Shown here: positions 19,412 to 50,671 of the stretch, piece by piece
Layout of the letters: every line of letters begins with the position of its first letter
Numbering within the stretch: the first letter of the stretch is position 1
Source: Basidiobolus meristosporus CBS 931.73
Lineage: Eukaryota; Basidiobolomycota; Basidiobolomycetes; Basidiobolales; Basidiobolaceae
Direction: 5' to 3'
NCBI GenBank assembly: GCA_002104905.1
Contig: MCFE01000640.1
Coordinates: 1-50,671 of the forward strand
Length of the DNA: 50,671 nt
Made by a program: the position numbers and the translations under genes
Notes under the pieces: generated by a model
Told to the model about the DNA's origin: nothing
The model's database searches: none
Seen by the model: the letters and a program-made list of their open reading frames with translations, nothing else

Positions 19412-19419
19412 TATATATT
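19412..19419 (+). promoter_or_regulatory. TATA box of arrestin paralogue 2
   Basis: TATATATT followed by GAGG, 52 bp before the ATG, the same word as upstream of the small secreted peptide gene. Confidence 0.65.
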
Positions 19420-19470
19420 GAGGCGGATCAGGGGTTAGTATCCCCCATCGACAGCATATCACAAACCATC

Positions 19471-27829: not shown

Positions 27830-28200
27830 ATCCTCCAGCTGATTACTGTCGTAAACATCGTAAATACACCCAAACATCCACCTAACCCGGCCACTTAGAT
27901 CATTGCCTACAGATCCTGGAGAATTCAGACCAGATCCCTTGTTGGGACCCGCTTGGACTATTTTCACCGAAATATCAGGTATACAGTACACAGTACATGA
28001 AAATTCCCGAAGTTGGCCAAACCGTGCCAAACTTTGCACACATGCTCTTGGGACCTTCCTGAGCATGTTCTACGGGGGTTTTTTTTGGTCAAGACCATGT
28101 AGAAGTATAAATACCACTTTTCCACTCAGTAAATCATCAAGTGAAAACCTTGTGATCCACTTGTTCCCCCAATCACTTCCAATATCTCCAGACTCTTACA
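27830..28200 (+). mobile_element. Copia-family LTR (plus orientation), left edge degenerate
   Basis: Matches the family LTR from about 27850 (words ATCATTGCCTACAGATCCT, CACACATGCTCTTGGGACCTTCC, TCAAGACCATGTAGAAGTATAA) to the end ACTCTTACA at 28200. It is followed after seven bases by a gag ATG, the same short leader seen after the LTR at 29278. Confidence 0.8.
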
Positions 28201-28207
28201 ATAGGCC

Positions 28208-28800
28208 ATGCGCCTCAATAGGTCCCTCTCTGAGTTGCTTACCACCGCTATTATTGGAATTTTCCCCTCTGCTGAAAAGGTGGATGGATTTAACTACCAT
28301 GTCTGGAAGGTGAAGATGAGCATGCTGCCACAGGAAAGAGGTCCTTGGGATATTCTTGTGGGAAAAGAATGTCCTCCTAATGGTGTAGGCGAAGAAGTCT
28401 TAAGGCACCAGAAGAAAGAACAAAGCACCTTTGACTGCATGTATCTCAATGTCAATCACACATTGCTAGTTCAACGCTCAAAAGCAAAAAGGGCCAAGAA
28501 TGCTTGGAGGGCATCAGAACACTGCTTACCATCATACTCAGCTGCAAAGAAGATGTGTCTTTGACAAAAGGTCTTTACCGCAGAGATGCTTCCAGGAGAA
28601 GAATTGAATAGCCTAATTTGAAGAGGTACCCTGTTGGTTGACAAGATGGGATCAGTTTGTGTACAAACCAATGCCACAGATGTCATAGTTGGAAAGAAGA
28701 TCTTATGCAAATGACAACATTTGAAATGTTGCCAGAAGCAACAAAACACTATATTAAAAGCATTTTTGAGTTGACATGCATTCCCATTGCAATCCTCCAG
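28208..28800 (+). pseudogene. Copia gag fragment
   Basis: The ATG lies 8 bp after the LTR. The 118-codon frame has the Copia gag N-terminal pattern (AEKVDGFNYHVWKVKMSML), then is interrupted by a stop at 28562-28564. Beyond it, frameshifted homology continues (KVFTAEMLPGEELNSLI and TLLVDKM, matching MMPGEEIKNLI and TLLEDEM of the minus-strand element) to about 28670. No protease or pol follows. A 3'-truncated dead copy. Confidence 0.8.
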
Positions 28801-29213
28801 TTCTAAGAAATTGTGAACAGACATATCAAATTTTACCTATTTATACAAAAACTACCATCACAAGACTCAAATCCCAGGACCTAGAGGTCTAGATGCTGTT
28901 AGGAGACTATGCAAAGACTAGTACAAAAGGTTTGCACCATATATTCCTTAAAAAGCTTGGGCAAAGGTTTTCATCCCAGTGGCACCTAGGCTGGTTTTGA
29001 CTATTTCACTGCCATTTTTCTCACTTTCAGATTCTGGACACTCATTTGTCCCCCACATATGTGTACATAGATGGGCTGTTGCTTTTTTTCATATTTCTTA
29101 CTTACTTACTTGACCAGTGCCCTTACTTTTCATCCATTCAAATTGGTATAATTCCATTGAGTCTTCCAATGTAACTCAACTGCTGTACTGACATTTGCAA
29201 GTCTATACTCAAT
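28801..29213. other. Unassigned sequence between Copia fragments
   Basis: No recognised gene or repeat. AT-rich, probably degenerate transposon sequence. Confidence 0.4.
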
Positions 29214-29862
29214 ACCTGTTGCAAGCACCTTGGAGATGTTGGAAGTGATTAGGAGGACAAATAGATTATATGGTTTCTGTTGAAAAGTGTTTAATCCCAC
29301 TCAAATATACACCTAACTTGGTCAATCAGATCATTGCCTACAGATCTTAGAGAATACTCACCAAATTCCTTCTCAGATTTACTCAGAATATCTTAACCAA
29401 TTATCAAGTACCCAGAACATGGAAGTACTCAAGGTTACCCAAAAAGCCCTAACTTTGCACACATGTTCTTTGGATCTTTTTAAGCATATTTTATGTGTTT
29501 GTTAAGCCAAGACCATGTAAAAGTATAACCACCACTTTTTCATTCAATAAATCACTAAGTGAAAGCCACATCATCTGCTTGTTCTCCCAATCACTTTCAA
29601 TATCTTCTAGACTCTGACAACAGGTCATGGGCCCCAAGCTGTCACTCTCTGCAATGTCCACTACTGCTATTACTGGAATTTTTCCCCCTGCTGAAAAGTT
29701 GAATGGATCTAACTGTTATAATTATTTACTTGTCACCTAAATATTGATACCAACATAGTCACCAAGATCTTGTTCTGTGATTAGCATCTCATCCTGACCA
29801 AAGTACTTGTTGGGATTTACTTGGAAAAAATTTATCAAATTATCAGGTACCCATATGACTGC
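29214..29862. mobile_element. Cluster of nested Copia fragments
   Basis: In order: a minus-strand LTR end (29214-29277); a nearly complete plus-strand LTR (29278-29619, TGTTG...TGACA); a plus-strand gag start from the ATG at 29627 to about 29725, with EKLNGSN as in other family gags; and a further partial plus-strand LTR (about 29725-29860). The next, minus-strand Copia LTR begins at 29863, so later copies landed in earlier ones. Confidence 0.75.
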
Positions 29863-30382
29863 TGTAAGAGTCTTTGAGATAGTGGAAGTGATTGGGAGAA
29901 CAAGTGGATTAAGTGGTTTTCACTCAATGATTTATTGAATGTAAAGTAGTATTAATACTTTTACATGGTCTTGGCATAGCAAACATAAAAAATCCGTTTA
30001 GGATGGTCCCAAGATCATATGTGCAAAGTTTGGGGCTGTTTGGACAACTTTGAGAACTTTTGTGCTCAGGGTACCTAATATTTTGGTGGAAATATTTAAA
30101 GTAAATCCCAACAAGGATTTTGGTCAATATTCTCTAGGATTTGAAGGCAATGATCTAAGCATATAGTTCAGGTGAGGATATAGGTGGAACTACAAATATT
30201 AATAACACTGCCATTCAAATAAGTGTTCATACTAACTAGTCCTAATTCTGACCAAAGAAATTCAAACTTGTCTCTAGCCAATGCCTTTGTGAATATATCT
30301 GCAATCATTTCATCAGTAGGACAGTAAGCTAAGTTAACCAAGTTATTCTCTGTAACTTCACTTATGAAATGGTGTCTAATAT

Positions 30383-32834
30383 CTATGTGCTTAGTTCTAG
30401 CATGAAAAGTTGGATTTTACCTAATTGTATACATCCTTGATTATCCTGAAATAAAGCAATAGGCATTGTTTGACATTTGCCTAAATCTTTAAAAAGCTTC
30501 CTTAGCCACATTGCCTCTTTTGTAGCTTTACAGGCTGTCATGCAGTCTATCTCTGTGGTATAAAGTGCAAAGGTTGGTTGGGTTCTTGAGTTCCATGAAA
30601 TTGCTCCTTTACAGTAAAGAAAGGTGTATCCTGTGGTGGATCTTCTGTGTTTCAAATTTTGTCCCCAAACAGCATCAGAGTATTCCACAAGATCCTGTTC
30701 TGAATCTTCATAAGTTTAACTTAAGTAGATATCAGCAGTTCCTTTTAGGTATCTAAAAATCCACTCAACTCCTGCAATATGATCAGATCCATAGTTCTGA
30801 TTACACTGGCTGACAACTCCCACTGGATATTAGATATCTGGACATGTTCTAAGCATGATATACATCAGACTGCCAACCATAGATTTATAATGAAAGCAGG
30901 GCTTCCAGATGGCACCAGGCACTCTTGATTGGTTGAGTTTTAACCAAGTTAAGGTTTGACTCCATTGGGGTAGCTGCTGGTTTACAGTTGTTGATTTGGT
31001 ACTTCCTTAGTATATCTTGAATATACTTGGACTGGCTTAGGGCTATAGTCTGGGTACTTCTGTCTATGAAGAACTTTATCCCTAAGTAGTAACTGAGCTC
31101 TCCTAGATCAGACATCTTGAACTCCTTAGATGGGCTGGATTTAGTCTCTTTCAATGTTTCTAGGTTATTGGTGACTATAAAAAAAGCATCCACATATATA
31201 GCTAATAGAACTGGATCTGCTCTATCTGGCTCAGGGTAGATACTCTACTCAGCATTACTTCTTTTGAAACTCAAAGATTCCAAATAAGAATCTATTTTGT
31301 AATTCCAGGGTCTTGGTGATTGTTTGAGTCCATTTAGTGACTTTTTAAGCTTGCAGACCAAATGGGGGTTGTCTTGGTCAGCGAACCTGTCTGGCTGGTC
31401 CATATATATGTCCTCATCAAGTTCTCCATTCAAAAATGCAGTTTTTACATTATTCAATGTACAAAAACTTATATTTGGCTGCAATAGCCAATATCAATTT
31501 TATGGAATTAAGCTTGGCTACTGGTGCAAAGGTCTCAGTGTAGTCAAGTCCTTTTGTTTGAGGGTATTCTTTGGCCACAAGTCTTGCTTTGTATCTTTCA
31601 ATTGTACCATCAGCCTTGTATTTTGTCTGAAACACCCACCTGCATTCAATCAATTTTTGGTTGATTGGTAGTTTGACCAAGTCCCAAGTTTGATTTTCTA
31701 CTAGGGCCTGATGTTCCTCAGTCACTGTAGATCTCCAAAACTTTGTCTGAGAGCTGTTGAAGGCCTCTTCTACAGTCTGGGGCTCATTAATATGGACTGA
31801 ATAAGCATAGGCTAAGTTTGTACCCTCATTAATACAGTAATTTGGGCTATTTCTTGTCTGGTTCAATTTCTGGGCAATTGATGCTGGAATGAGAACTTCT
31901 GGGATATTCCTGGGCAGCAATTCAGGCTGAACCATGGTTGTAGAGTCCTCTGGAGGGAAAAAACTTTCATTTTTGGCTCTGATTCAATCCTGACAATTGG
32001 TATACTTGAGATTGTATATTTGTCACCATCTGATGACATTGTTTGAGAAACTTGAGTTTTCATCAAACAGCACATCCCTGGACATGATCAGCTTCTTTGC
32101 TTTGGTATTGCAGAGTCTGTATGAATTACTCTCATTGCAGTAGCCCAATAATATAAATTTTGCACTTTTTGGCTCATATTTTGACTGATTTCTGGGCAGT
32201 TTCTTGGCATATGCTGTACACCCCAATATTCTTAGATATTCTGCACTTGGTATGTATCCATACCATGCCTTGAATGGAGTAGAATAACAGAGTATTCTGG
32301 TATAACTCCTATTTTTAAGGTATACAGCTATAGCAACTAATACCACCCAAAAACTGTAGGATACTTTTTGATCATGGATCATTGATCTTGCCATATCAAC
32401 TATTGATCTGTTTGCACATTTTGCTACCCCATTCTGCAGTGGGGAGTATGCTACAGTAGTCTCTTGCTTTATCCCATCAATTTTGCAGAAGTAGAAGATA
32501 GGTATGAGGTATATTTTCCACCATTGTCCAAGCAGATTTTCTTAATTTTTTAACCAGTCTCTCTCTCCACCATGGCTTTAAGCTCCCTGAGCTTAGACAG
32601 AGCTTCTTTCTTTCTCTCTATGAAGTAGACCCACAGGTATCTTGTATAATCATCAATTACAGTGATTAAATACTACATCCCACTTAATGATAAATTTTGC
32701 ATAGGTCAACACACATCTGGGTGAGTTAAATCTAATCTTTTCTTAGTATTAGTTAACCCAGAGCTCTTGAATAGTTGTCTGGCTTGTATCCTATATATGT
32801 AGGCCTCACAATGCTCCAAACTAGCTGGGGGATA
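30383..32834 (-). pseudogene. Copia pol remnant: integrase, reverse transcriptase, RNase H
   Basis: Minus-strand order: end of the zinc-binding segment (SLEHCEAYIY), integrase core (ITVIDDYTRYLWVYF, then LDNGGKYTSYLF where GGEY is canonical), integrase C-terminal part (about 32394-32023: LRILGCTAYAKKLPRNQSKY), RT (31935-30885: CRWVFQTKYKADGTIERYKARLVAKEYPQTKG; KTAFLNGELDEDIYMDQP; active site YVDA instead of YVDD) and RNase H (30688-30383: YSDAVWGQNLKHRRSTTGY). At least five stops or shifts interrupt it. The Asp-to-Ala change in YVDD alone would kill RT activity. Confidence 0.87.
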
Positions 32835-32835
32835 A

Positions 32836-33612
32836 AATTTACTCTGGAAATATGAAATTAATTGTAATATCGTTTGGTTAATTCTGTATTTGGCTGTTAT
32901 TTTGATAAATGCACTTTGTTGGATAATTAATCATAAACTTAAATGTTGCAAATCTTTGCAAGTTTTGTTAAATCCATGTTGGTATGATGGAAGTTACAAA
33001 TATGGACTAATTTTTATGTTATTATTGGTGTATATATTTTGTTGTGGTTATCAAAAGGAATTGGGTTTTATATGGTTTATTTTTTATTATATGCATTTTG
33101 CATGTAGTTTAGTAGCTATATACGCAATGTTTTTTTGCAAATTTATTACTTTAAATAAGTATAATTTGCCTATATTAAATAGTATTAACTGGGATATTAA
33201 AATCTCTTATTCTGATGAGGTCAAATTTGGTAGCACTAATATTAAAAACATAGAACGCCTTAGACTTTATGTGGACGCTTATTTATCTGGAAAATATGAT
33301 TATCCAGACAAATATAAACAACAATTTAGACAAAAGTTTAATAATTTAAAACATAAGTTCGATCAAGAATACAACCAGAATGCTGGGCATGAAATAAATT
33401 ACGTATTAAAGCAACAATTGGAACAAAATTTACAAAATGTAAATCAGGAATACAAAAAGTTTGAACGTAATTTAACAACTATAGAACAGTAACACAAACA
33501 AGAAATTCTTGAACAGGAATCCAAACTTTTTAATTTTAAATACATCAAACGTTTATCTGATAACAAACTCAAAGAATTTAAAAATATATTTATGTCTGCA
33601 ATTATATTTTAG
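32836..33612 (+). pseudogene. Membrane/coiled-coil protein, tandem paralogue A (5'-truncated, one internal stop)
   Basis: The frame is open from the insertion's left edge (no ATG; the start is lost, or lay in an upstream exon) to a TAG at 33610-33612, broken only by a TAA at 33490-33492. Two or three hydrophobic segments (LILYLAVILINALCWII; LIFMLLLVYIFCCGY; FIWFIFYYMHFACSLVAIYA) surround a VLLNPCWYDG motif. A soluble part with INWDIKISYSDE and a Lys/Gln/Glu-rich predicted coiled coil (about 33300-33540) follows. Codons after the stop (KYIKRLSDNKLKEFKNIF) match the C-terminus of paralogue B, proving that the TAA interrupts a once longer gene. Family unknown. Confidence 0.6.
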
Positions 33613-33656
33613 ATATTATAGATGTGATAAAATTATTGTTTTTTGTCAAAATTTAC

Positions 33657-35196
33657 ATCTTGATGTTTAAAAAAGTTAATTCGGAAAAAGTTTTAATTTT
33701 GATTTTTAATATTTAAATTTGGTTTTTGATATTTGATTTTTAAATTTTAAATTTGGTTTTTGATATTTGATTTTTAAATTTTAAATTTGGTTTTTGATAT
33801 TTAATAATTAAACTTGATATTTGAAAAATGTTTTTTAAAAAAGTTTAAATCTTAATGCAAAAAATTATTTCGGGTTTAATGCCAAAAAATGTACAAATAA
33901 TATAGCAAGAAATTATTAATTCCATTTACGCAAATAAATCAAATACAATTAACTTATTGATGTCAACATTTATGTTATAATATTAATAATACAAAAAAAC
34001 CCTTTCTCAATGTGAGAATTAAGTTACAAAATTGGACAATTGTGTTGAAGATATATTTATATATTGTATATACCACTTTTATACAATCAAATATTTTACT
34101 CAGGCGGATCTGCTAAACACACATATATTGCATGTTTTGTAATTATTGCGTTTTTGATTTTAATAAATGCAACATGTTGGATTATTAATTTTAAAATTAA
34201 ACGCAGAAAGTATTTGCAGGTTTGGTTGAATCCAAGTTGGTATGATAGCAATAAAAAATATGCAATAATAGTGTGTTTGTTACTATTACCAATAATATGG
34301 CGTTTTTTTTGAACAGAATTAAAGAAAAACAAGACTATTATTTGTTATTTGCACTTTGCAATGATATTACTAACTATTATAACCAATCTTGATTTTAGTA
34401 AACCAGAAAGGTGTAATTTATATGTTTTAAATAACATTAAATGGGATATTAAATTATTGCTTAGGGATGGATTTTATTATAACAACAGTAATATATTTAA
34501 TATAATAAATCTCAAAGATTACGTAGGAACTCTTTTATTAATCAATGAATTAAATAATAAATACACCGATAATTTTATACAAAATTTAAAAATTAATTTT
34601 GACCCACAATTAAAAGAGAAATTGGATACGTTGGAGTATGATTTAATTTGGGCTAAACAAGAATCAAAAAGGGTGTTGCAAAAATATGAAGAAGATTTAA
34701 AATACAGATTAAAACTTAAAATGGACAAACAAAGATCAAGGCAAAGATTAGATAGGATACAACAAGAGTTGAAAGGATTGGTCTGGAATTTTAACAAAAA
34801 TATGGAACAAAAACCTGAACAAAAAATTTTACAGCAGTTTGGAAACTTAAGATGCAAATTAGATAGATTAAAAGAAATATTAGAAAAGAAATCCAAGTGT
34901 TTTGAGATTAGATATATAAAACATTTCTCTAACGATGAACTAAAGGAGTTCAAAAATATATTTTTAGATGATGAAACATTAGATGAAGTTAAAATAGGAT
35001 GCAATTAAACAAATATTTTGCATTAAAAAAATTGGGATGAATAAAAATAAATTTTTGGTAAATAAGTTATTATGTTTGAATTAAAAAGATTTTTTGTATG
35101 ATTAAGTTTTGGGTTTAGAGTATTTGTTTAAGTTTTTTGGGATGACAAAGTTGAGATCTTGATGTTTAAAAAAGTTAATTCGGAAAAAGTTTTAAT
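33657..35196. repeat. Identical 41-bp spacer repeats after paralogues A and B, plus AT-rich tandem units
   Basis: The 41 bases at 33657-33697 recur exactly at 35156-35196 (beginning ATCTTGATGTTTAAAAAAGT). Between 33700 and 33810, TTTGGTTTTTGATATTTGAT-type units repeat about three times, and related units follow the second copy. Each paralogue is therefore followed by the same kind of spacer, as if gene plus 3' spacer were duplicated together. Confidence 0.85.
34049..35008 (+). pseudogene. Membrane/coiled-coil protein, tandem paralogue B (one internal stop)
   Basis: Same layout as paralogue A: hydrophobic segment (YIACFVIIAFLILINATCWII), VWLNPSWYDS motif, second segment (YAIIVCLLLLPIIW), third (ICYLHFAMILLTII), the NNIKWDIKLLL block, and a long charged coiled coil ending FEIRYIKHFSNDELKEFKNI. 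One TGA at 34310-34312 interrupts an otherwise continuous frame of about 320 codons. No ATG precedes the first hydrophobic segment. A good splice acceptor (TATTTTACTCAG, about 34085-34096) suggests an upstream exon. Unknown family; a membrane-anchored protein with a cytosolic coiled coil is all that can be inferred. Confidence 0.6.
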
Positions 35197-35373
35197 CTTG
35201 ATGCTTAAATTAAGTTTTTGATTTTTGATTTTTAATATTTAATATTAAAATTTGGTTTTTGGAAAATGTTTTTTAAAAAGGTTTGAGTCGGGTTAAGAAT
35301 ATTGTTTGATTGTTGTATATAATAACATACAATTTTTACGAAACTTAAAAAAAAATTTCTTGCATTCTTACAG

Positions 35374-35762
35374 ACGTTGAAGTTGCAGAAGTAAATACAG
35401 ATCTTACTTTGAATGCGTTAACGTTTTTGAACAAAGATCTTTTTAATATGATATCTTTGTCTACTAATAGTGTTGTTACAAATGGATCATGCCAAGGATA
35501 TAATTATTTTGGTTATTTAAACTACAACAATAATACAAATATAAATATTTTGCAAAACAAGACTTTTGAAGCAATTAATTTGTGTTCAACAAATGGTTCT
35601 ATGTATTGTTCTGCCCAATGTAGTTATATCAACTTTATAAATACAAAAATGTATACAAATATTACAACTCTGGGTAGGAATTGTGTATTTCCAATTGGGT
35701 CAAGCAGTTCTAAAATAACTATAAACGGGTTGTTTATAATGTTAATTGGCATTATGATTTAA
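35374..35762 (+). CDS. Small Cys-containing, C-terminally membrane-anchored reading frame C
   Basis: An Asn/Cys/Tyr-rich frame with several N-glycosylation-type sequons (NNT, NKT, NIT), about six cysteines (GSCQGY, LCSTNG, MYCSAQC, GRNCVF) and a hydrophobic C-terminus (ITINGLFIMLIGIMI) suggesting a tail or GPI-like anchor. No ATG lies near its beginning. The frame opens just after a consensus splice acceptor (ATTCTTACAG, ending 35373), so it may be the last exon of a spliced gene, or start at an internal ATG at about 35448. No stop interrupts it. The family is not recognised; a surface protein is a guess. Confidence 0.4.
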
Positions 35763-35864
35763 AACTGGTTAAAAAAAAATAAACAAAATATACATTAGAA
35801 TAAAAACATAGATTAAAAAAATCTGGACTAAAAGTCTGGAGAAAACTTTTTTATTTGTCAAAGT

Positions 35865-36310
35865 TTAGTCAAAAAAGTTTTGCGTGATGACAAAGTTTAG
35901 ATCTTGAAAAGAGTTTGGCGGGAAGACTAAACTAAAATCTTGAAAAAGTTTAGTCGAAAAAAGGTTGCGTGATGACAAATTTTTTTAAAAAGAGTTTTGC
36001 GTGATGACAAAGTTTAGATCTTAAAAAAAGTTTGGCAGGAAGACTAAACTAAAATCTTGAAAAAAGTTTGGTCAAGAAAGTTTTGCGGGATGACAAAGTT
36101 TAGATCTTGAAAAAGGTTTGGGTCAAGAGAGTTTGGGAGTAGAAAGATTAAGTTTGGTCAAGAAAGTTTTGCGGGATGACAAAGTTTAGATTTTGAAAAA
36201 AGTTTGGTCGAGAAAGTTTTTTAGGATGACAAAGTTTTAATCTTGATGTTTAAAAAAGTTTTTTAAAAAGTTTTCATGATGATAAAGTTTGGATCTTGAA
36301 AAAGATGTTA
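35865..36310. repeat. Array of imperfect GATGACAAAGTTTAGATCTTGAAAAA repeats
   Basis: At least six imperfect copies of a unit containing TTTGCG(T/G)GATGACAAAGTTTA, interspersed with AGTTTGG(T/C)CA.GAAAGTTTTG, fill the spacer between frame C and the MutS 3' end. Two related copies also occur at about 33640 and 35140, linking the spacers of the whole insertion. Confidence 0.8.
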
Positions 36311-38129
36311 ATTGGAGTTTGACGGTTAGACTTTGGGAAATGTTGTTAGAGAAAGATTAGGGTTTATAAAAAAAGTTTTATTAAGGGGTGGGAGTTAGGT
36401 TTGAAAGGAGTTTTAAAAAGGGATAATCATTGGGTTAGAATGGTTATTGTTCAAAATTTAAGATAAGATCTTTGGTGGTGCTAGCATAGCCGTTAATCTG
36501 GAGTTTATTTTGGTGGGTTTTAACGTGACAGTTTTTGCAAAGAGCAACGAGATTAGATTTAGAATTTTTGTGGCAATGGTCGATCATACCATTGTTTTCA
36601 GAAGTGTGTTGATGTTGGATATGGTGGACATTGATAGGGAGGTCGGTGGTTTGGGTAGGGACGTAGTTGCAGATTTGACATTTGTAAACAAGTTTATCTT
36701 TGTTGTAACGGCTATATTTGGAGTATTGGTTTAGAAGACCATTGGCAATAGTGGGACAAGTTTTATCTTCACGGGACAAAATGTTGGCACGGATTTGGAA
36801 AGCTTTTTGGAGGAAGTTAGAGTCCATGTTAAGGAATTCGCAGACTTTGAGGCCATAAATGGAGTCACAGGGGCCTTCTTTAATTTTGCGTTCAAAGATA
36901 ATAACATTTTTAGAATTAATATGTTCAAAATTAACAGAAAGATGAAAAACTTTAACGTTGGGAATATCTTTGATAAATTTGTAGATGTTGTGTAAATGGG
37001 TGGTGAACATAAAGCTGATATTTTGTTTGGCAAGAGTCATGACGCTGGAGGCAAAGATGGCAGATCCAGAGATATGTTCTGTGCCGTGGATAATTTTGTC
37101 GGCAAGAACTAAAGTGTAGGGGTCGGCACATTTGAGGATATTTCTAAGGTCAGACATTTTGGCAACAAAGAAGGATTGGCCTTTGAGAATATTATCTTTG
37201 CTAAGGATGCAAGTCATGAGAGATTTGTAGGGAGAGAATTTGAAAGAAGAAGCGGGGACAAAGGAGCCCATTTGGGCAAGGATGATGGAGAGGCCACAGG
37301 CTTTGAGGAGGCTGGTTTTGCCACAGGAGTTCATGGAGTATAAGATGATACCGTCATGGTTGTTGGTACCAATGGTGATATTGTTAGGGACATATTCTAG
37401 ATTAGTTTGGAGGCGTTCAATGAGGGGGTGATGGAGATCAGTGGCTTTAAAATAACTTTTGTTGGAGAGTTTGACAACAGGGCGGCAGAAGTTGTAGAGG
37501 CAACTAATTTTGTAGTTAGATTTAATAACGTCAAATTCGGCAACAAAGAGTTTGATGCAACAAAAGATATTTTTGTAAGAAGATAAGTGTTTGAGGCTGC
37601 TAAGGAAGAGAGATTTAAGTTGTTTGTTAATTTGGTCATCTAGGGAGAGAATATGATTGCTAATGTGGGTTAGGCTGTTGGAGGAGATTTTGGTGTTTAA
37701 TTTGTCAGATTTAAAGGTAATGTAATTGTTAGAGATGAAAGATTTGGTTAAGGAAGATTTAAGTTTGGTGGCAAAAGAATTGGTGACAGAAAGATAGTAT
37801 CCAGAGCGGGGAGAATAGTCGACTTTAATGGGGATAAGTTTTTTGTTGACATATTTGCGTGAGGTAGAAGAAAGATAAGAGAGGGCGTGAGAAGAGAGAG
37901 CAAAGGCAATATCTTCTAATTTGTCAAGTTCAGAAGTTTGAGAGTTGGAGAGGGAGTCAAGATTGGGGAAGATACCTTTGCAAAAGATGGAGGGATCAAG
38001 GGTGCCAGTGGTGGGGATATTATCAATAACAAAGATACAAGAGATGTCGTTAACAAATTTGTTAAGAAGGGAAATTTTGTGTTGAGACAAGAGGATATGT
38101 TGTAAAGAAGATTTGGGAGGTAAAGTTTG

Positions 38130-38400
38130 TGGGTTAGGAAGATCATCAGATGAAGAGGAGTGTCTATTGGGAGGCTCATCGGATGAAAAGGAGTGTCTAT
38201 TGGGAGGCTCATCGGATGAAAAGGAGTGTCTATTGGGAGGCTCATTGGATGAAAAGGAACGTCTATTGGGAGGATCATCAAATGAAGAGGAGCGTATATT
38301 GGGAGGCTCATTGGATGAAGAGGAGCGTATATTGAGAGGCTCATTGGATGAAGAGGAGGGTATATTGGGAGGATCATCAAGTGAAAGAGTTTGTAGGTTG
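38130..38400 (-). repeat. 33-bp tandem repeat inside the MutS gene
   Basis: Seven to eight 33-bp units encode 11-residue repeats of the form PPN-(I/R)-(R/H)-S-(F/S)-SS-(N/D)-E. Being a multiple of three, the array keeps the frame. It interrupts the lever region between ILDLCNLLIPAF and LQHILLSQHKI. Confidence 0.9.
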
Positions 38401-39300
38401 GGAAGATCATGAGAGGAAGAAGTAGTATTAGGGGAGGAGAAGGCAGGAATAAGAAGATTGCAAAGATCAAGGATAGCTTTGTAAGAGGTATAGAGTTGAG
38501 AAAGTTTGGGTAAAGTTAGAACTTCTAATAAAAGTTGGCGATGAAGTTGTTCAAGCTTGGCAATATTAGTTAAGAGACGATCGAAAGTTTTTACGGAAGG
38601 TTTGAAGAGAGAACCAAAGTTGTCAAGTTGGCAATAACGATGTTTTAATTTGTGGGGATTGGTGACAGGAGAGAGGAGACGCTTTTTAAGGAGTTGTTTA
38701 CCCATTTTAGTAGAACAGAGATTGATAATGTCAAGTAAACATTGGGTTTGATTAGATTTGTGGGAAGACTTGGATTTGGGGAAGTGGATAAGATCAAGTA
38801 GGTCTATAGTATTGGTGGCAAGGAGAAGATGGTTGGAGGATAAAAAGATTTCAGGAGGGGAAAGTTTGCGGACAAGCACAGGATTGTGGAGGTAAAGGAA
38901 TTCTATAAGAAGGACGTAACTAATAAGAGCGAGGGGTTTGCGTTCAAGATCTAAAAATTCTATGTTGGAGAGCATGGTTTTGTGGGGGAAGATGTTGCCT
39001 AATAGTTTGTTCTGGTAGTTGAGTTGAAGAGCTTTAGGAGTGGCATCTATGTAATGGAAGAGGATATTGTTGGAGTAGAGTTCTAAGTAAGATACAAGGT
39101 TGAGGGATTTAATAAAGTCTAAATATTTGGAGGGAGAGCAGAAGACAACTTCACAAGGGTGGTATTGTTTGAGGAAGGAGAGGATATGATCAAAAGAGAG
39201 ACAATGATCTTTGGGGGTAGAGTTAGATTTGTAAACGGTATTTTTACCGGTAATAACATCAATGGCACTAATACCAATGTTAAAAGAGATATTATTGGAT

Positions 39301-39375
39301 TCAGAAATTAATTTTTTATTGGTGTCAGAAATTAATTTTTTATTGGTGTCAGAAGTTAATTTTTTATTGGTGTCA
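39301..39375 (-). repeat. 24-bp tandem repeat (three copies) inside the MutS gene
   Basis: Three copies of a 24-bp unit encode the octapeptide SDTNKKLI or variants, in frame, between the connector-type region and FNIGISAIDVITGK. Confidence 0.9.
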
Positions 39376-40011
39376 AAGAATAAGAGAACAAGATAATTGC
39401 GAGAGACAAGAGATTTGTCAACGTCAACATAGGTGGAGGGGCTAATAATATTGGTAACTTTGCGGGTGATATTGGGAGGGGAACCTTTTTGGTCAATAAT
39501 AACAAGGGTGTAGTTATGCTTGAGTAATAAAGGGATGTATTTTTTAAGTGCGACACAGGGGAAGCCGACGAGTAGGGGGTTGGAGCGGTTGTTGTAAGAG
39601 AGTTTTTAATTTTTTTTAGTTAGGATGATATTATGGAGCTCGGAGATATTGGCTGGGTTACCAAGTTTTTTGGTATTGTTGTCAACACCGTAAATTTTGT
39701 AGAAGCTACCGACTTGCATAAGAACAATGAGTTGTTGACCATATTGGTGTTGGTAGAGAGTTAAAAAATTAAAGTATTTGTTGACAACGGATTCTTTACT
39801 CATGTTCAATATATGAAGGGGTGGATGAGGGTGTAACCAATTTAATTGGATGGAGATGAGAATGGGATGGACATGGATAGTTTAGTGGGATATTTTTTAA
39901 AAGGCAGGGGGGAGGGTTCAACAATCAAAGAAGAGATATACATGGGGCGTAAAGAGAGGATAGAAATAAAAGTTGTTAGTAGAATATATCTTCAAGTATA
40001 AATTTGGCACT

Positions 40012-41333
40012 ACAGTAGTAAACTTTGCACAAGTAATGAAAATTGATATACACATATCTCCTATGCCAAAGCCTTGGTGCTTCTTCCTTCAAGTTACTTA
40101 TATTGGCTTCCAGATATGATGGAACTTAAGTCAACTTATACAGATTCTGATCTCCAATACCCAAAGCAATATGGGCACCATTTTGATCAGTGATCCTGCA
40201 TCCAGAATTGTCAAAGCTGAAGCTGAGTCCTTCTACAGTGGCCTTGCTTACAGATAGTTGGTTCTTGGCTATTTCTGGCACATAGAGTACTAATTTGGAA
40301 GTCAGTGTATGGCTTACTTCACTGCTTCTGAGGTTTACTTGGATAGTTCCTTCTCCCACTGCATCAAGTGTTCTATTGTGACCTATGAAAACCTTCTTAA
40401 TTGAAATCTCTTAGTATTGGGTAAGACGCTCTTTTTGGTGAGTAAAGTGTTGAGATGCTCCAGAGTCAATGTACAACATCTGAGATTTCTTGTTTGTGGT
40501 CATATATGGTGTAGATATGAGTAGTCTATCTTCAGTTGTTGCAGCATTTCCATATTCAGGCTTCCTTTGCTGATTATCTCTCTTTTTGAGACACCAGTCA
40601 GATTTGTGTCCATTCCTTTTGCAGTAGTTGCAAAACAGGTTGCTGTTGCCTTTGTAAGGTCTTGGGTACCTCCTTTGTTGGTTACCGTAACTTATTAAGG
40701 CATTTTCTTCTTCCTTCTTATTGGCACTTGATTTTCTTGATTCTTCAGCCAGGAGCCTTCCATATATATAATTTAAGGTCAAATCTTCAGCTCTGAACTC
40801 TAGGGCTGATATAAGGCGCTGAAACTTGTCTGTCAGGCTATTCAGGATGGTAACTATCTCATCCTCATCAGTAGTTGGTATGCCCATAGATTCCATCTCA
40901 TCCTCCAGCAGGGTACTTCTGTTAATAAGATTCTTGATTTCTTCTCCTGGCATCATCCTTGTAGTAAAGAACTTTTGTCTTGGATACATTTTCTTGCCAG
41001 CCAAACATGAAGGTAGGTGCTTTCTAATGCCTTCCAGGCATTCTTTGCTGTTCTTGCTCTTGAGCATTAAATTAGTTATTTGTCTTTACCATTATGGCAA
41101 ATGCAGATAAAGACACTTTGCTCTTTCTTCTGGTACTTCAAGGCTTCCTCTCCCACATTTTTAGGAGAGCATTCTTCTCCCATGACAATATCCTAAAGGC
41201 TTCTTTCTTGTAGCAGCATCTTCATCTCAACCTTCCACACTTGACAGTTGGATCTATCCAACTTTTCAGCAGAGGGAAAATACTAGTAATAGCAGTAGTA
41301 GACATTGCAGAGAGTGACAGCTTGGGCCTCATA
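40012..41333 (-). pseudogene. Copia gag, zinc knuckle and protease remnant
   Basis: Gag begins at the ATG at 41333, only 7 bp inside the 5' LTR, and is frameshifted early. The long frame 41067-40411 then gives FFTTRMMPGEEIKNLINRSTL, a CCHC knuckle (FCNYCKRNGHKSDWCLKK) and the protease active site LYIDSGASQHFT. The next frame (40359-40126) continues the protease, followed after a stop by the GAG-pre-integrase LWHRR..INF motif, which ends at the AT-rich insertion. Confidence 0.85.
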
Positions 41334-41684
41334 GAGTATTGTAAGAGTCTAGGAGATATTAGAAGTGATTGTCAAGACAAGTAGATTATGTGGTTTTCAC
41401 CTAATGATACATTGAAAGCAAAAGTAGTATTTGTACTTTAACATGATCTTGGCATAAAGAACATGTAGAATAGATTTAGGAAGGTCCTAAGAGCATGTGT
41501 ACAAAGCTTGGGGTGGTTTGAACAACTCTGAGAATATTCAGGTTCTGGGTATCTGGTATTTTGATGAAAACATTCTGAGTAAATACCAGCCAGGAATTTG
41601 AGCAGTATTCTCTAGGACCTGAAGGCAATGATCCAAGTGACTAAGTTAGGTGAATATTTAAGTGGAATTCAAATTTTGACAACA

Positions 41685-41945
41685 GATGGATCTAACTACC
41701 ATGACTGAAAGGTAAAGATAACAATGCTGACATAGGAAAGAGGTCCTTGAGATATTTTGTGGGAAAGGAATGCACTGCTAATGGTGTAGGAGAGGAAGTC
41801 TCAAGGTATCACAGAAGGAACAAAGCACTTTTGACAGCATATATCTTAATGTCAAATGTATATGGCTACTTCAGTGTTCAAAAGCAAAAATGGCCAAAAT
41901 GCCTGGAGGGCAATGGAACACACCTTACCATTGCCCTATGAAAAA
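41685..41945 (+). pseudogene. Plus-strand Copia gag fragment
   Basis: Starts GATGGATCTAACTACCATGA and shows the same block as 28260-28560 (GGAAAGAGGTCCTTG, GGTGTAGGAGA.GAAGTCT, AAGCAAAAATGGCCAA), with frameshifts. It is directly adjacent to the 5' LTR of the minus-strand Copia and is likely the older element it inserted into; its left half may be the gag start at 29627. Confidence 0.7.
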
Positions 41946-42692
41946 TAACTTGGTCCTGCAGGTGAATCTGATCCAGATCTGCCATCAGGATCCCATTTGG
42001 ACTCTGTCATAATGCCAGCAGCTTGGAATTAGTGACCCTCTTAACAATCTTTTGATGGAATCACAACAGCATATAGCTAATTTTACTGTTAAATAAATGT
42101 ATAAAACTTGACAGGGTTTGATTGGTGCTCTGGCAATAATTGCATGGTATTGTTGTGGTTGTAGTGTGTGGTACCACCATCTTAAATGGATTTATCTGGC
42201 CTGTACATCCAACTTTTTTATATGGCAAATAACTTGACGGTGTTTTAAAGGCCTCATTGCAAGTCTCTAATGGCATTATGACAGCACTATGGCAGCCTAT
42301 ACCTTGTTATATATAGTGCTACCATACCAATTTACCAAATGGTACTTTGTTTTTCTACCTCCCCTTGTACAATTCATATATTCCACTGTAGAATCACCCC
42401 TGTTATTTACTCACACACTACTACCTTGGGTATTCCATCTATAGTTCAAATAAAAAAGAACTATGGCCTCCTGCTTACTAATCTCTGCAGACATGCACAC
42501 CTGCTACAATTGGCATACTTCTATCACCTCAACTTTACAGCTTTTTAGTGTGATACTTGCAAAGTAGCCATATACCTTGTACTACTGGTAACATACACAT
42601 ATTGCAAACATATGCTTAGTTGCCACCACTAGTGTTGTGAATACCTCCTGAGTATCCACAGAGTACCTTTTGGTATTTAGCCAATATATTCC
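41946..42692. other. Unassigned sequence between Copia and Gypsy elements
   Basis: No supported gene. Two stretches share TATGGCAAATAACTTGACGG / TGAAAAATAACTTGG. Probably degenerate transposon sequence. ATTCC at 42688-42692 is the left target duplication of the Gypsy element. Confidence 0.45.
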
Positions 42693-43211
42693 TATCATGA
42701 TCACATGACAACCATGAACACCTGTGCCAAGTTTCAGCTCCCTAGCTCAATTTCTAAGAGATTCCTTCTGGAACCTTCTACCACCTTCCAGAAAGTTCCT
42801 GACCATTCCAAATCATTGTTAAACAATGGAACATTCCATGGAAGCTTTCCATTGTATTTTTCATAGTACAGTACCATATATGGAAATACCAGGTCACATG
42901 ACTTAGTCGCATGATCAGGTGACCCAATCCATCTCCCATCCCGTCTCAGTGCCGTGTCATCTATGTCAATATCCCCAGCACCATTGCTGTGCCTCACTCC
43001 ACAACCCCATTAGTATTAGCTGATATCTCTTGGCATCAGTATAGCCAAAAGTATATATAGTCCTATCCCCCCTTAAGTATTCCTCAGTCTGATAAACACA
43101 GGTCTTGAATAAACAGCCTTGCCTTGAATCCTGCCTTGCCTTGATGGTCCACACCTAAGTCCTTTCCTGCCATGCCTAGCTTTTCCTCCTGCCTTGTGTC
43201 TATTCATAACA
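42693..43211 (+). repeat. Gypsy 5' LTR
   Basis: Direct partner of 49964-50483 with a TATA-like TATATATAG at about 43051. First bases TATC instead of TGTC. Confidence 0.9.
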
Positions 43212-43325
43212 GTTTTATCAGACTCTCCTGACTTACCTGTGAATCCCTGCCTTCTGCCCAAAGTTTGAAGAAAACTTGTAAAAGGAATACTCACTGTAAG
43301 TATCACCCATCATCTTTCCCTAGTC

Positions 43326-43853
43326 TTGTCCTATAAAGGCAAAGATGCTTTATCTTTGTAAAACTATTGGTCAAAGCTGCATTCACTTTATTACCCTGCT
43401 GGTGGAGTTTACAGTTGTTACAGTATTGGAAGCTTTAGTACAATACTCTATCAAAGGATGTCAAAACCAGTACCTTCTGAAGTGACGCTGTGGTGGTGTA
43501 TAAGTCCAGAGGGCAAAATACGGCCAACACTTCTCAAGTGTGAATGTGTGTGGGGTGTTCACTGGGTGTGATAACCTCTGGCAAAAGCTTGCTAGGAATA
43601 CTGGGTCTTTTGTCTAATCTAATGTGATGGGGGATAAAGCCTCAAGCTTGTCAAGGGAAAACTATTGAACTACAATCCCCAACTTAGTTGGTGTCTTAAC
43701 AAAAGTTTATAATGGCTTTGATGTCCTTTGAGATGACAATGTACTAAAGCTTCCAAAGTCAAAATAACTGTAAACTCCACCAACAGGGACTTGATAAGAA
43801 TGCAGCTTTGACCAATAGTTACAAAGACTGAAAAGTATCTTTGCCTGTACAAG
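43326..43853. repeat. Inverted repeat of Gypsy leader sequence (43326-43474 and 43709-43853)
   Basis: Arm 1 (plus) and arm 2 (reverse complement) share ACTATTGGTCAAAGCTGCATTC, TGGTGGAGTTTACAGTT and GGAAGCTTTAGTAC in order. Continuing arm 2 on the minus strand gives AAGTTGGGGATTGTAG, which matches the leader just before gag (about 45396). Arm 2 is therefore an inverted leader fragment inside the nested insertion. Confidence 0.85.
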
Positions 43854-45379
43854 AACAAACTTGGGAAAACAAACAAATATAATAAAATATACCTACTCTG
43901 AGTATTCCTCACAAGTAGTGCCTCCAAGGTCAGTTGGCTGTCAGCACGGTTTCCTGGGCGTTGTGGTGGTGTAGAGGTACTCCTGGGAGAAGCTACACAA
44001 CTCAAGGTGTGTGAGGTGTTTGATGGGTGCAATAACCTCTGTGTCTAAACTGCTGGTGTCTTTGTCAATATGTCACTATGGTAAAAGCTCCTGCTTCTCT
44101 AGCTTCCTAGGTGCTCCAAGTGTCTCCAAAGGCCTCTGTGTGTCTTGTGCACTACCCTGAAAAGCTCCTTGATGGCAGGTCTGAGATGTACTGTTGAAGG
44201 CAGGTGCAGTGATCAACTGCTAATCAATAAGGTAGAAGTGTTACTGATAGAAGGGATGATTTATTGATGAGGGATTGCTTTCCCTTAAATACTTTTCCTG
44301 ATTGCCAAGTGATTACTAATGTAAAGGTTCTAGAAGATTCTAGGTATCAGTGGAATTCTTGATGACATCACAATGAGCTAAAAATATGCCGAGAATGTCC
44401 TGGAAGGTTCTAAAAGGCACAGCACATTCAACCAATCAGGAATCAGTTGTCTGAAACCTATGCAACATAGAAATACCATACATGGTATTGAAATGGTAGG
44501 GATGGTAACACAGACTTAGGTCATGTGTCACAGGTACTGACGCGGGTACTTGCCTTATATAGATACATCTACTGATTACAAAGCTGAATAACATCTGGGA
44601 TAACTAATGCTAATAACTAATCAGGGTAAACATCATATGGGGATAATACAGATAATATGGGCAAAAGAAGAATGGGATAATACTGATAAGATAAAATATG
44701 GATAAGTATATCATAATGACTATATGAGTAAACTTGTCTGTGGGAGGTTTGTTTACCCTACCACAGCGTGTCGTCAGGTCTGAGTCAGAAAATAGTGGTA
44801 ATAGGTAGCGGTGATCTCACTAATCAATAAGTCGGAATATTGGAAGAGGGATCATTTATTTTAAGGGATAGCCTCCCTTATATACTTTTTTGCTGCTTGA
44901 ATTCTTGCTAGAAAATACTTTCCGGAAGTTTCCAGAAGGTAGTAGACAACCAATCATGTCTTTGTGTACTAAAAATAGCGCAAATTCTTGGCGGATTGTT
45001 CCATGAGACATAGTAGCACCTAGCCAATCAGGTAGTGGTAATATGAAACCTCTGTGTCATGTGGTTGCCTCTTATGGTAGTGAGATGGGGGGGGGGTTAT
45101 GAAACCAAGATGGTCACGTGACATGGGCACTGTTGGGGTACTTGCCTTATAAGCTAACTATCTTATCTTGGCATCTTGGCAAGGAATAAGAATAGCTTGT
45201 GCAATGGGTTAATAGTGACAAATAGTTTGTCAGGTTGCATAGTAATAATCACATAGACAAAAATAGGAAATATTGCAAATTTGGGATGATAATAATATAG
45301 GCGGGGTAATCCTTTTTAGGGAAGTGAACGCATAAGAATGAGCACATCTGCCTGTGGGTGTCACTGTGACCCCACTACA
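43490..45379. mobile_element. Nested LTR-type mosaic inserted in the Gypsy leader
   Basis: Flanked by ACGCT at 43485-43489 and 45380-45384. Removing it reunites the leader as judged from the inverted leader copy. It contains two GTGGTGGTGTA ends (43490, about 43967), the inverted leader fragment, and two diverged roughly 580-bp direct copies (about 44190-44768 and 44800-45379; shared words CTAATCAATAAG, CATTTATT/GATTTATT, GGGTACTTGCCTTATA), each ending CCCACTACA or CCCTACCACA. No coding frame. Probably solo LTRs of another family plus rearranged pieces. Confidence 0.65.
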
Positions 45380-45511
45380 ACGCTAACTTATTTAAGTTGG
45401 GGATTGTGGCTCAATAGCTGTATTCTTACATACTAGTGGCTTTACAAACCCACAATCTAGTTTAGTATATTCCAGTATTCCTTGCAAGTTCATCCTCCTT
45501 CCTCTGCTACC

Positions 45512-46444
45512 ATGTCCAACCTAGAGCTGAACTTTGCCCAGCTCATGGCTGCCTTTACCCAACTGCATCAAGACCATGCAGGCCTCAGAAACACTCTTGC
45601 TCAGTTCCAGAACCAAAGTGTCCAGCAAACTAGCCATGTCCCAGTCTACCAAGAACCCAAGTATACTCCTGCTACCAAGTTCAATGGCTCTCAGAATGAA
45701 TTCCGTGGCTTCATCAACATGGTGAAGAACAATCTTGCCCTCCAGCCCAACCAGTACCCCACTGACCAGGCCAAAGTTGGTTTCATCTCCAACCTGCTTA
45801 CTGGTACAGCTCTCAAGTGGTTCTCCCCATTAGTGGAGACCAACTCTCCCCTCTTCAGAGACTACCAAGCTTTTCTCACCGAAATGGAGCTAACATTTGG
45901 TGACCTTGACCAAGCCAGAACTGCTGCCAACAAGATCAAGACCCTCAAGCAAGGGAACAAACCAGCATCAGTCTATGCCTCAGAATTCCGACAACTCTCC
46001 AGTGACCTCAGCTCCTGGGGTCAAGCAGCCTTGATTAGCCAATTCCAAGATGGCCTCAATGATGAAGTTTGTGATCTACTACTCACACTCCCAGATCCAG
46101 ATACATTGGTTGAAGCTATGCACCAAGCAATCCGGTGTGATAACAGACTATTCCAGAAGAAGCAAAAGAACCGTCAAAGACACATTCCTGTTGCAGTCCC
46201 AGCCCCTCCTGCTCCCCAAGTCACTCCAGAAGATCCTATGCAGATTGATAGTGCCAAATACAAGAAACAATCATAGAGTGAAAAGTCCAGACGTCAACAA
46301 GCCAACCTCTGTCTATACTGTGGCCAACCAGGTCACTTTGCCAAGTCCTGCCCCAACAAGAAGTCCAGCTTCAAGCTGATGCAGTCCTCCAGCAACCAAC
46401 CTGATTCAGATCTGTTGGGAAACTCCAATGTCCAGTTGCACTGA
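45512..46444 (+). pseudogene. Chromovirus gag with internal TAG
   Basis: The ATG at 45512 follows a pyrimidine-rich context (CTACCATGTCC). The retrotransposon gag domain (KFNGSQNEFRGFINMVKN...LTGTALKWFSPLV...FLTEMELTFGD) runs to a TAG at 46274-46276. The same frame continues with a CCHC knuckle ([14 protein letters not shown]) to a TGA at 46442-46444. The TAG probably replaced a sense codon, as the knuckle belongs to gag. Pol follows in another frame, implying frameshifting in the intact element. Confidence 0.9.
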
Positions 46445-46449
46445 CAGGC

Positions 46450-49400
46450 TTGCAACTGGACCCACCCATGGAAATCCAGCATATCCAAGAATCTTCCTTT
46501 GCCACAAAATCTATCCAGTCCTTGAGAATGCCTGTCAAAATCCAGATCCCTGACTCCAGTCCTGTCCCAGTTCTAGCCCTGATTGATTCCGGTGCTTCAT
46601 CCTGTTTCATTGACCAAGCCTTTGTCCAGAAGCACTCTATTCCTGTTACCTTGAAATCCTGTCCAGTCCAAGTAGAAGTTATTGATGGAAGATCACTCTC
46701 CTCTGGTGCCATTACCCATGAAACATGCTTACTTCAGCTGTCCAGTACTGCTCACCAAGAAAGAATTGCCTTCAACATCATCAACTCACCACACTATCCT
46801 ATTGTGCTTGGAAGCTCATGGCTGAGCTACCACAATCCAAGTATTGATTGGAAATCCAAAATCCTGTCATTCACCAGATCCCACCAAGTCAACTCCATGA
46901 AATCTCCAGACCCTGATAACCGTGAAAAGACTGTTGCCAACAGTTCAACAGCCCAAGATACCTTGCCAGCTGAAGGAGCCCCCTCAGCAAACATACCAGC
47001 CAAGTACCAAGAGTTTACCCATGTGTTTGACAAGAAGAAAGCAGAACTCCTCCCTGACCATTGGCCTTATGACTGCCCTATTGACCTTGAAGATGGAAAA
47101 GTCCCTCTATTTAGCCCAATATATAACCTCTCCCAGCCAGAGCCAAAAGAACTCCATGGTTATATTGAAGAAAACCTCCAGACGGGTTTTATTCAGCACT
47201 CCAATCACCTGCTGGAGCCCCAATCCTCTTTGTCAAGAAGAAGGATGGCACACTCAGAATGTGTGTGGACTACCGTGCTTTGAATAAGATCACATTCAAG
47301 AACCGCTACCCCCTGCCCCTGATCAACACACTGTTGGATCAGCTCTCTGCTGCCCAAGTCTTCACCAAGATTGACTTGAGAGGAGCCTACAATCTTGTCA
47401 GAATCAAGCCCGGTGTTGAATGGAAAACTGCCTTTTGCACAAGATATGGTCACTTTGAGTACAAAGTAATGCCATTTGGCCTCACCAATGCCCCTGCTGT
47501 GTTTCAACACCTCATGAATGACATATTCCGTGAATACCTTGACCAGTTTGTGGTAATCTACCTTGATGATATTCTCATATACTCCAAGAGCCAAGATGAA
47601 CATGATGAACATGTCAAGAAAGTATTGAGAAAACTAGACTCTGCCAGTCTCTATCCCAAGCTAGAGAAGTGTGAATTTGACCAGAGAGAAGTGGAATTTC
47701 TTGGTTACCTCATCAGCCCTGAGGGAACAAGAATGGACCCAAAGAAAGTTGACTCAGTCCAATCCTGGAAAACTCCAAGCTCAGTCAAGGAAGTACATCC
47801 TTCCTGGGATTTGCCAACTTCTATTGCAGGTTCATAGCCAACTACTCCAAGATAGTCACCCCTCTGACAAAGCTTACCCAGAAGAACACACCTTTGGCCT
47901 GGAATGAGGAGCAATCCAGCTCATTCAACCAACTCAAGAAATCTTTCCTGAAGGCCCCCCTGCTTGCCCACCCTGACCTTGAGAAGCAATTCATAGTGGA
48001 GACTGATGCTTCTGATTTTGCCCTTGGTGCCATACTCTCCCAGGATGATGAGGACAATGTGTTGCACCCCATTGCATTCTACTCTTGGAAGTTTTCCCCT
48101 GCAGAGATCAACTATGATATCTACGATAAGGAGTTACTTGCCATCATTGTAGCCTTTGAGCAATGGAGACACTACCAGGATGGTGCAAAACACAAAATCA
48201 AAGTCTTCTGTGACCATAAGAACCTTGAGTACTTTGCAACTTCCAAAGTACTAAACCGGAGACAAGCCAGATGGTCACTCCTCCTGTCCAGCTTTGACTT
48301 TACTATCACCTATAGACCTGGTGCAAAGCAAGGAAAGCCTAATGCCCTGTCCAGAAAAAAGGAATATGTCCTGGAAGAGGGAGATGATGCCTGTTGGCAA
48401 ATGAAACACCCATTGCTGAGCAAGAAACATTTTGAGATTCTTGCCACCCAGTCCTCAAGTCTTGTCATCCCTTCATTCCTAGTAAGGATATCAGAATCCC
48501 AAGCCTCTGATATGACTTCCAGCACTGTCAAGAAATATCTGGAATCCCCAGTTGGGCCCCCTCCCAAGTTCCCAAACATCCAGAACCTGCATTTGGTAAA
48601 CAACCTCATCTACCACAAGCAGCAGCTTTATGTCCCAGACCTTGCCACCCAGCTAGACATCATTAAGTCTTGGCATGATTTAATGGCTGCAGGCCACTTT
48701 GGTACTGTCAAAACCTTGAATGATATCAAAAGAGATTTCTGGTGGCCTAGAATGATAACTCTTATCAAAGAATACATTCTGACTTGTGATATTTGCAACC
48801 ATGCAAAACCAGCTAGACACCAGCCCTATGGACTTCTTCAGCCCTTGCCTATCCCAGAACACCAATGGAGATCTATATCTATGGACTTCATTACTGACCT
48901 CCCTGAGTCATGTGGCTTCAATGCTATACTTGTAGTGGCTGACCGGCTGACCAAGATGGCTCACTTTATCCCTTGCTGTAAGAACACTGATGCAAAAGAA
49001 ACTGCTGTTTTAGTCCTGAAGAATATTTTCCGCCTTCATGGTATCCGCAGTGATATTGTGTCAGATTGAGGCCCACAGTTTGTGTCCAAGTTTTGGAAAC
49101 ACTTCATGCAATACCTTGGTGTTCAAGTCAAGCTCTCTACTGCCTTCCATCCACAGTCTGATGGCCAGACTGAAAGAATCAACCAGATTCTAGAGCAATA
49201 CCTCCGGTGCCATATCAATTACCAGCAAGACAATTGGGTTGATCTACTCCCTGTTACTGAGTTTGCCTACAACAACTCAAGCCATAGTGCAATCAGTTTT
49301 ACACCATTCTATGCAAACTATGGATTCCACCCTCAGTTTGATATCCAGATTCCAACAAACCCAATGAGCCCACATGCGGCTGAACATGCCCATGCAATCC

Positions 49401-50483: not shown

Positions 50484-50671
50484 ATTCCTTCTCCCTGCTG
50501 GATTCTAGTCCCCCTTATAGGTGCATTCTGGCTCTTGTTTGTGTGAATTTCATATTGAATAGTGTAGAAGTTGGCTTGTGACCAAGAGAAGCCTGGCATA
50601 ATTTGGTAGAGCATTCCTATTAAAAATTAGATGCTTGTTGCACCCAACTCAACTTTGCATTACTTATCAAA

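Follow-up and report, generated by a model that had tools for sequence, protein, structure and literature searches.

The 50,671-nt stretch of contig MCFE01000640.1 from Basidiobolus meristosporus CBS 931.73 (GenBank assembly GCA_002104905.1), here called the window, carries a Copia retrotransposon that is interrupted by an AT-rich insert of about 7 kb. The insert encodes three open reading frames (ORF1 to ORF3) on the plus strand and, on the minus strand, a broken gene for a MutS protein with C-terminal HNH residues. The coordinates of all features are given in Table 1.

Boundaries and composition of the insert

The insert was delimited by its composition and by the reading frame of its host. 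Its GC content was only 17–26% in 500-bp windows across 33001–36000, and a GC skew of +0.44 to +0.64 across 36001–40000 stopped at 40000. The motif AAATTT stands at both edges as a direct repeat of exactly 6 bp, the following base being different on either side. Up to the right edge, the minus-strand frame of Copia is LWHRRYVYINFHYLCKVYYCSA-KF, and from the left edge it resumes with YPPASLEHCEAYIY, giving the peptide YCSA-KF, then YPPASLEHCEA, across the insertion site. When the flanks were joined with one AAATTT kept, they matched positions 20–64 of the Pfam profile gag_pre-integrase across the junction with 21.7 bits, compared with 18.5 bits and no match for the halves alone, all scores being under the Pfam cut-off of 28.4. 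AAATTT is common in such DNA, with 20 occurrences inside the insert and 22.6 expected, and the repeat is convincing only because it lies at both composition edges and because the Copia frame is restored. Thus, the insertion into host DNA is exact, with both junctions within Copia. The initial annotation of this DNA had described the sharp change in composition, AAATTT at both edges and a frame restored on removal of the block and one AAATTT, and all three were found again.

The plus strand was G-rich in all eight blocks of the insert, coding or not, with skews from 0.10 to 0.67 and genes on both strands; this G excess may be a trace of the replication of the donor. Terminal inverted or direct repeats at the insert ends did not exceed those of shuffled ends (for inverted repeats, best end-to-end scores of 16 over 200 bp and 22 over 600 bp, shuffled means of 17.1 and 22.0). 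No further copies of the insert were detected in the rest of the window with blastn, and no RNA family was detected in 28000–42000 with Rfam.

The MutS7-HNH-like pseudogene

The MutS protein of the insert exceeded the Pfam cut-offs for MutS domain III (47.4 bits, cut-off 34.1), domain V (120.2 bits, cut-off 30.2) and domain IV (24.7 bits, cut-off 22), and domain II gave no Pfam match in the scanned frame. Domain I (PF01624) was precomputed for P0001, an annotated protein of the same strain, to which the N-terminal part of the window protein aligns. The HNH residues (HH...N...H) and the four cysteines of CxxC...CxxCH are kept in both proteins, and P0001 matched HNH families of PHROGs with E-values down to 7.8e-6. 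The MutS with a C-terminal HNH domain named in the initial annotation was recovered in this way, its HNH residues being present though the Pfam score is low. MutS7 is described as composed of domains I, III, V and HNH (PMC3166940), and a domain IV is reported in two octocoral mitochondrial MutS proteins (mtMutS; PMC8438181). Judged by these sequence features, an assignment as MutS7-HNH-like is supported, with the label MutS7 not set apart from MutS8 by the definition of the latter. A profile of the clade formed with its relatives matched structures of MutS, MSH and MutS2 among the PDB sequences (37 distinct sequences), and this shows no more than a MutS fold.

The gene is damaged. One early codon is now a stop and two conserved motif glutamates are lost, those of the Phe-X-Glu motif and of Walker B. 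At 124 residues that are invariant in 23 relatives, the window protein had 15 losses and P0001 eight; five of the latter fall within a gap of the gene model, and the other three are conservative and common to the window protein. Read from its sequence, the window copy is dead. The gene also contains a 33-bp tandem repeat encoding an 11-residue serine/proline-rich unit, and G occupies only 2% of its third codon positions.

A second copy in B. meristosporus

The best match of the window MutS was P0001 (K493DRAFT_362925) with 94% identity over 59% of the query. Both proteins align except for an 8-residue repeat difference and a stretch that the gene model of P0001 skips. For ORF1, a search in which 45 candidates were scored out of 5.8 billion proteins gave one match at E ≤0.001, namely P0018 (K493DRAFT_308697) of B. 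meristosporus with 97% identity over 56%. P0001 and P0018 are each listed on a 33,329-bp contig, and their genes probably lie together on one second contig.

P0001 is known as an annotated protein, not as DNA. Compared with the window copy, it is shorter by approx. 200 residues in the middle, and where it rejoins, a short stretch resembles another frame of the window. The gap would therefore be a gene-model intron laid over a 1-base difference, and the sister gene is not claimed to be intact. P0018 starts at an internal methionine of ORF1, and its gene may be broken too. In the trees described below, the branch of P0001 had zero length and that of the window copy 0.064–0.071, which suggests that the sister copy is closer to the donor.

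CpG decay and order of events

The observed/expected ratio of CpG was 0.025 in 28400–32835 (four CG in 4.4 kb) and 0.115 in 40007–45500, two regions that include the Copia halves plus neighbours; the retroelement that follows reached 0.10. Within the insert, the ratio was 0.71 in one half and 0.59 in the other, and it was 0.78 in the gene-rich part of the window. Since the flanks are stripped of CpG and the insert keeps much of it, the insertion occurred later than the CpG loss of Copia. Across the window, the repeat-rich regions 1–8000, 28400–32835 and 40007–50671 are all CpG-depleted (0.03–0.25), a pattern expected of cytosine methylation of repeats.

The window MutS differed from P0001 at 64 amino acids over 913 aligned positions, about five of them at the ragged edge of the stretch missing from P0001. 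Assuming one base change per codon, the DNA of the sister being unseen, 43 of the 64 were classified as CpG losses on the window side and none as the reverse kind. The remaining differences comprised seven other C-to-T/G-to-A changes, three opposite transitions and eleven transversions. A control for sequence context placed 43 of 50 C-to-T/G-to-A changes at CpG, compared with 300 of 1,390 eligible sites (22%; p 4e-22); the reverse kind of change had 75 open sites out of 789 eligible ones and occurred at none of them. Adding back the 43 losses raised the ancestral CpG level of this stretch to 0.94, a lower bound as silent changes are unseen.

Relatives of the MutS protein

A search with domain V and HNH of P0001 yielded 2,068 proteins at 1e-10 or better, and the best 120 of these 2,068, judged from their sources, were read as mostly metagenomic. 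Two trees were calculated from rows picked among the listed relatives for length and spread, with no named giant-virus or MSH rows. The window MutS and P0001 fell within a supported clade of 41 of 67 rows (Shimodaira-Hasegawa-like approximate likelihood ratio test, SH-aLRT, 100) and of 20 of 32 rows (100/100). They lay near P0030, P0097 and P0102, at lower support (92; 94/93). Rows of unusual composition were flagged in both trees, and the 67-row tree warns of long branches meeting outside the clade.

In IMG/VR, no close relative was found by protein scans or by a scan with 24 bases from the intergenic repeat. A wider alignment led to four distant IMG/VR loci, L001 to L004, of which two appear phage-like and two giant-virus-like by their ORFs; L001 and L004, joined in the 67-row tree by L002 and L003, stand in the trees as other lineages. 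The AT-rich contigs of L001 and L004 were read as bacterial phage; L004 encodes a helicase with a RecG-type end and L001 an SMC-like protein slightly under the Pfam cut-off. Their MutS proteins are probably phage-borne MutS7. L002, on a giant-virus-like contig, has two different RPB2-like genes within 15 kb (4490–8293 and 15555–19436). Among 84,980 prokaryote species, 145 stretches matched patterns of the clade and none was confirmed as a relative; few patterns were used per scan, so misses weigh little, and entries close to the window may be absent from the sets scanned.

MutS7 is reported from every fully sequenced member of the Mimiviridae as of 2018 (PMC6163669), and MutS7 and/or MutS8 from all Megaviridae then known and HcDNAV (PMC3749498). 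A viral donor was preferred because MutS7 is so widespread in these two groups.

Origin of the insert

The insert is best explained as a nuclear DNA fragment whose donor was a large DNA virus encoding MutS7 or an element descended from such a virus, and which was captured in a CpG-stripped Copia and has been decaying since. We give this reading a probability of roughly two in three. Donor DNA would have entered the nucleus of B. meristosporus or close kin and would have been joined into a chromosomal break inside the Copia, whose CpG sites were gone by then. This break probably had a stagger of six bases and its ends were filled in, leaving AAATTT on either side. Cytosine methylation by the host would then have silenced the insert, and CpG deamination would be eroding its sequence, while another B. 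meristosporus contig preserves MutS and ORF1, at least, in a less decayed state. The viral donor, the capture at a break and methylation as the cause are the parts that we infer. A capture without an enzyme of its own would agree with an ORF1 that is seemingly truncated and with the lack of a recognised integrase.

Several observations weigh against this explanation. The Pfam HNH score of the window MutS is under the cut-off with 12.2 compared with 21.4 bits, its row was flagged for odd letter make-up in the 32-row tree, and pattern scans of IMG/VR recovered no contig with a member of the clade. The MutS part of P0001 matches two phage families of PHROGs (8.7e-55 and 4.9e-22). The CpG classes carry the assumption named above. 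In the five insert ORFs, no viral hallmark gene (capsid, PolB, A32, VLTF3, D5) was recognised with Pfam, where only MutS domains scored above cut-off. The word AAAATTGA, the early promoter word of Mimivirus type, occurred 0 times in the insert with 2.45 expected. MutS7 is also known from octocoral mitochondria and epsilonproteobacteria (PMC8438181). The term virus is thus applied through the family resemblance of one gene, whose closest relatives come without genomic context. Accordingly, the endogenised fragment of a large DNA virus proposed in the initial annotation is kept in part: such a fragment is the likeliest origin, but the signal comes from one gene family, MutS7, and no hallmark gene was recognised beside it.

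An extension of this reading is possible, though rather unlikely: B. meristosporus may be, or may recently have been, host to a replicating large DNA virus that belongs to this MutS7 clade. In that case, the 33-kb contig with its less mutated MutS would be a piece of the virus outside the chromosomes, or else a provirus without methylation, and the insert in the window would be a captured, methylated fragment of the same lineage. Among the rivals, the least unlikely is an origin as chromosomal filler, in which break repair or segmental duplication copied a long-resident, perhaps domesticated Basidiobolus locus, now seen as the 33-kb contig, and the acquisition of MutS7 was an older, separate event. 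The second copy of MutS and ORF1, each listed on a contig of 33,329 bp, agrees with such filler, and apart from the three conservative changes and the five in the gap, P0001 has all residues that are invariant in 23 relatives, which would fit selection in the fungus. However, the GC content in 33001–36000 lies far below the 50% seen in the gene-rich part, and the relatives listed (17; best 120 of 2,068) include no other named fungus, a weak point as most rows are without an organism name.

A plasmid or transposon that moved by itself, leaving a 6-bp target duplication or entering from a circle by crossover at AAATTT, is improbable. It would account for the exact 6-bp direct repeats, for the second copy and for the G excess on one strand throughout, but terminal repeats did not rise above shuffled ends, ORF1 seems cut at the left edge, which makes this edge resemble a break, and no integrase, recombinase, transposase or polymerase was recognised (five ORFs with Pfam; PHROGs). 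The initial annotation had already noted that no integrase is present, and had likened the 6-bp duplication to that of Polintons. Polinton/Maverick elements have a 6-bp target duplication, terminal inverted repeats, an rve integrase, a protein-primed polymerase and a capsid gene. The insert shares the duplication with them, while inverted repeats above chance, integrase, protein-primed polymerase and capsid were not recognised, so that a Polinton-like route is not supported. A chimeric assembly, in which a viral or plasmid molecule that was free became misjoined into Copia, had been named as the outcome that would overturn the first interpretation and is more improbable again. The Copia frame and the 6-bp repeat are exact, and the one-sided CpG decay relative to the sister (43 of 64 differences, upheld by the context control) fits long nuclear residence, because a molecule free until sequencing should look otherwise. 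An origin from mitochondrial DNA or a mitochondrial plasmid can practically be dismissed. The insert is AT-rich, and MutS7 is carried by the mitochondria of octocorals (PMC8438181, PMC3166940), yet the frames are open in the standard code save for single stops, no mitochondrial gene was recognised in the five ORFs with Pfam and, as mentioned, Rfam gave no RNA family.

Comparison with known systems

Endogenous giant-virus DNA in early-diverging fungi is already known from Rhizophagus irregularis, where a 1.5-Mb region of large-DNA-virus sequence is likewise part of the chromosome (PMC10640383). That region has five marker genes and is related to Asfarviridae, whereas the present insert is 7 kb long, has MutS7 only and lies in a retrotransposon; MutS is not mentioned in the main text of that paper. 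Its authors judged the region to be recent from its low density of repeats and transposons, and their abstract states that no double-stranded DNA (dsDNA) virus infecting fungi was known at the time of writing (PMC10640383). No open-access paper linking Basidiobolus with giant viruses (Nucleocytoviricota; nucleocytoplasmic large DNA viruses, NCLDV) was found.

The MutS7 of Mimiviridae is likewise described as a MutS with C-terminal HNH residues (PMC6163669). Compared with this published description, the window copy differs as a pseudogene with a stretch of 11-residue tandem repeats. The mtMutS of octocorals is likewise a MutS7-HNH gene that a eukaryote gained, probably from a giant virus, but it is mitochondrial and intact, whereas the MutS of the insert is nuclear and broken (PMC3166940, PMC8438181). 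The insert suggests that a MutS7-HNH gene has reached a eukaryotic nucleus, beyond the octocoral mitochondrion, and together with its sister copy it hints at large DNA viruses having had access to this lineage of fungi.

Endogenous pieces are evidence for dsDNA viruses of fungi. The young insert and its better-kept sister copy give a named fungus and a contig in which a live or recent virus can be sought, and if the replicating virus were real, they would point from sequence data to a living fungal dsDNA virus. The insert is also a natural clock: DNA that arrived with near-expected CpG in a CpG-stripped retrotransposon shows how captured DNA decays in an early-diverging fungus.

Other features of the insert and the window

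ORF1 has a hydrophobic N-terminal part followed by a charged, coil-like part. Its first part is without an in-frame ATG and it seems to be truncated by the left insert edge. ORF2 is a diverged copy of it, with 34% identity to ORF1 in the part beyond its stop, and related AT-rich repeats lie 3' of both. Pfam and PHROGs gave nothing above noise for ORF1, ORF2 and ORF3; the large protein set was searched with ORF1 only among the three. Fold prediction of ORF3 without an alignment reached a predicted local distance difference test (pLDDT) of 29.9 and no usable model.

Table 1. Features of the insert and of its Copia host (positions in the window)
Feature	Position	Strand	Remarks
Left long terminal repeat (LTR) of host Copia, part recognised	29943..30189		247-nt direct repeat, 76% to 41421–41667
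Copia reverse transcriptase pieces, two frames	30891..31983	-	30891–31244 and 31456–31983; RVT_2, 2e-18 and 8.1e-22
Copia SH3-like pol piece	32029..32541	-	SH3_retrovirus, 2.2e-20
AAATTT, left copy	32835..32840		6-bp direct repeat
Foreign insert	32841..39999		7,159 bp without repeats; from composition and Copia frame
ORF1	32839..33489	+	97% to P0018
AT-rich intergenic repeat	33644..33839	+	related to 35143–35277
ORF2	34064..35008	+	diverged ORF1 copy; in-frame stop at 34310–34312
ORF3	35349..35762	+	137 codons; several cysteines, asparagine-rich, hydrophobic C-terminus
Direct-repeat block	35856..36304	+	G-rich relative to C; 39-nt unit in several copies
mutS7-HNH-like pseudogene	36444..39803	-	one stop, codon 66 (39606–39608); rest one open frame
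33-bp tandem repeat inside mutS	38143..38378	-	approx. 7 copies; not in annotated sister protein
AAATTT, right copy	40000..40005		6-bp direct repeat
Copia gag piece	40414..41085	-	Retrotran_gag_2, 2.5e-16
Right LTR of host Copia, part recognised	41421..41667		247-nt direct repeat, 76% to 29943–30189

The LTR figures of Copia refer to a 247-nt ungapped match, as the exact LTR ends could not be set by gapped alignment. A Pol_BBD piece is also among the minus-strand Copia pieces between the LTRs.

The DNA of the window has the look of a fungal chromosome. In the gene-rich middle from 8 to 28 kb (GC approx. 50%) lie genes for an amino-acid transporter, two polysaccharide deacetylases, two arrestin-domain proteins, a TCP-1 chaperonin piece, an aldehyde dehydrogenase and a DM9-repeat protein. 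Eukaryote-type neighbours such as the chaperonin, the arrestin-domain proteins and the polysaccharide deacetylases support a fungal host, as the initial annotation had assumed, and the 94% and 97% matches to B. meristosporus agree with it. The two polysaccharide deacetylase genes (12947–14047 and 15385–16641) stand in tandem on the minus strand with very similar starts and are probably a duplication. Retroelements follow to the right of the gene-rich middle, Copia being succeeded from 46.4 kb by a second element with aspartyl protease, RNase H and integrase zinc-binding domains. Beyond the terminal repeats of Copia, a further pair of direct repeats (28283–28497 and 41685–41897) matches at 86% over 72 nt and at 81% over 85 nt, and is perhaps the remnant of an older nested retroelement.

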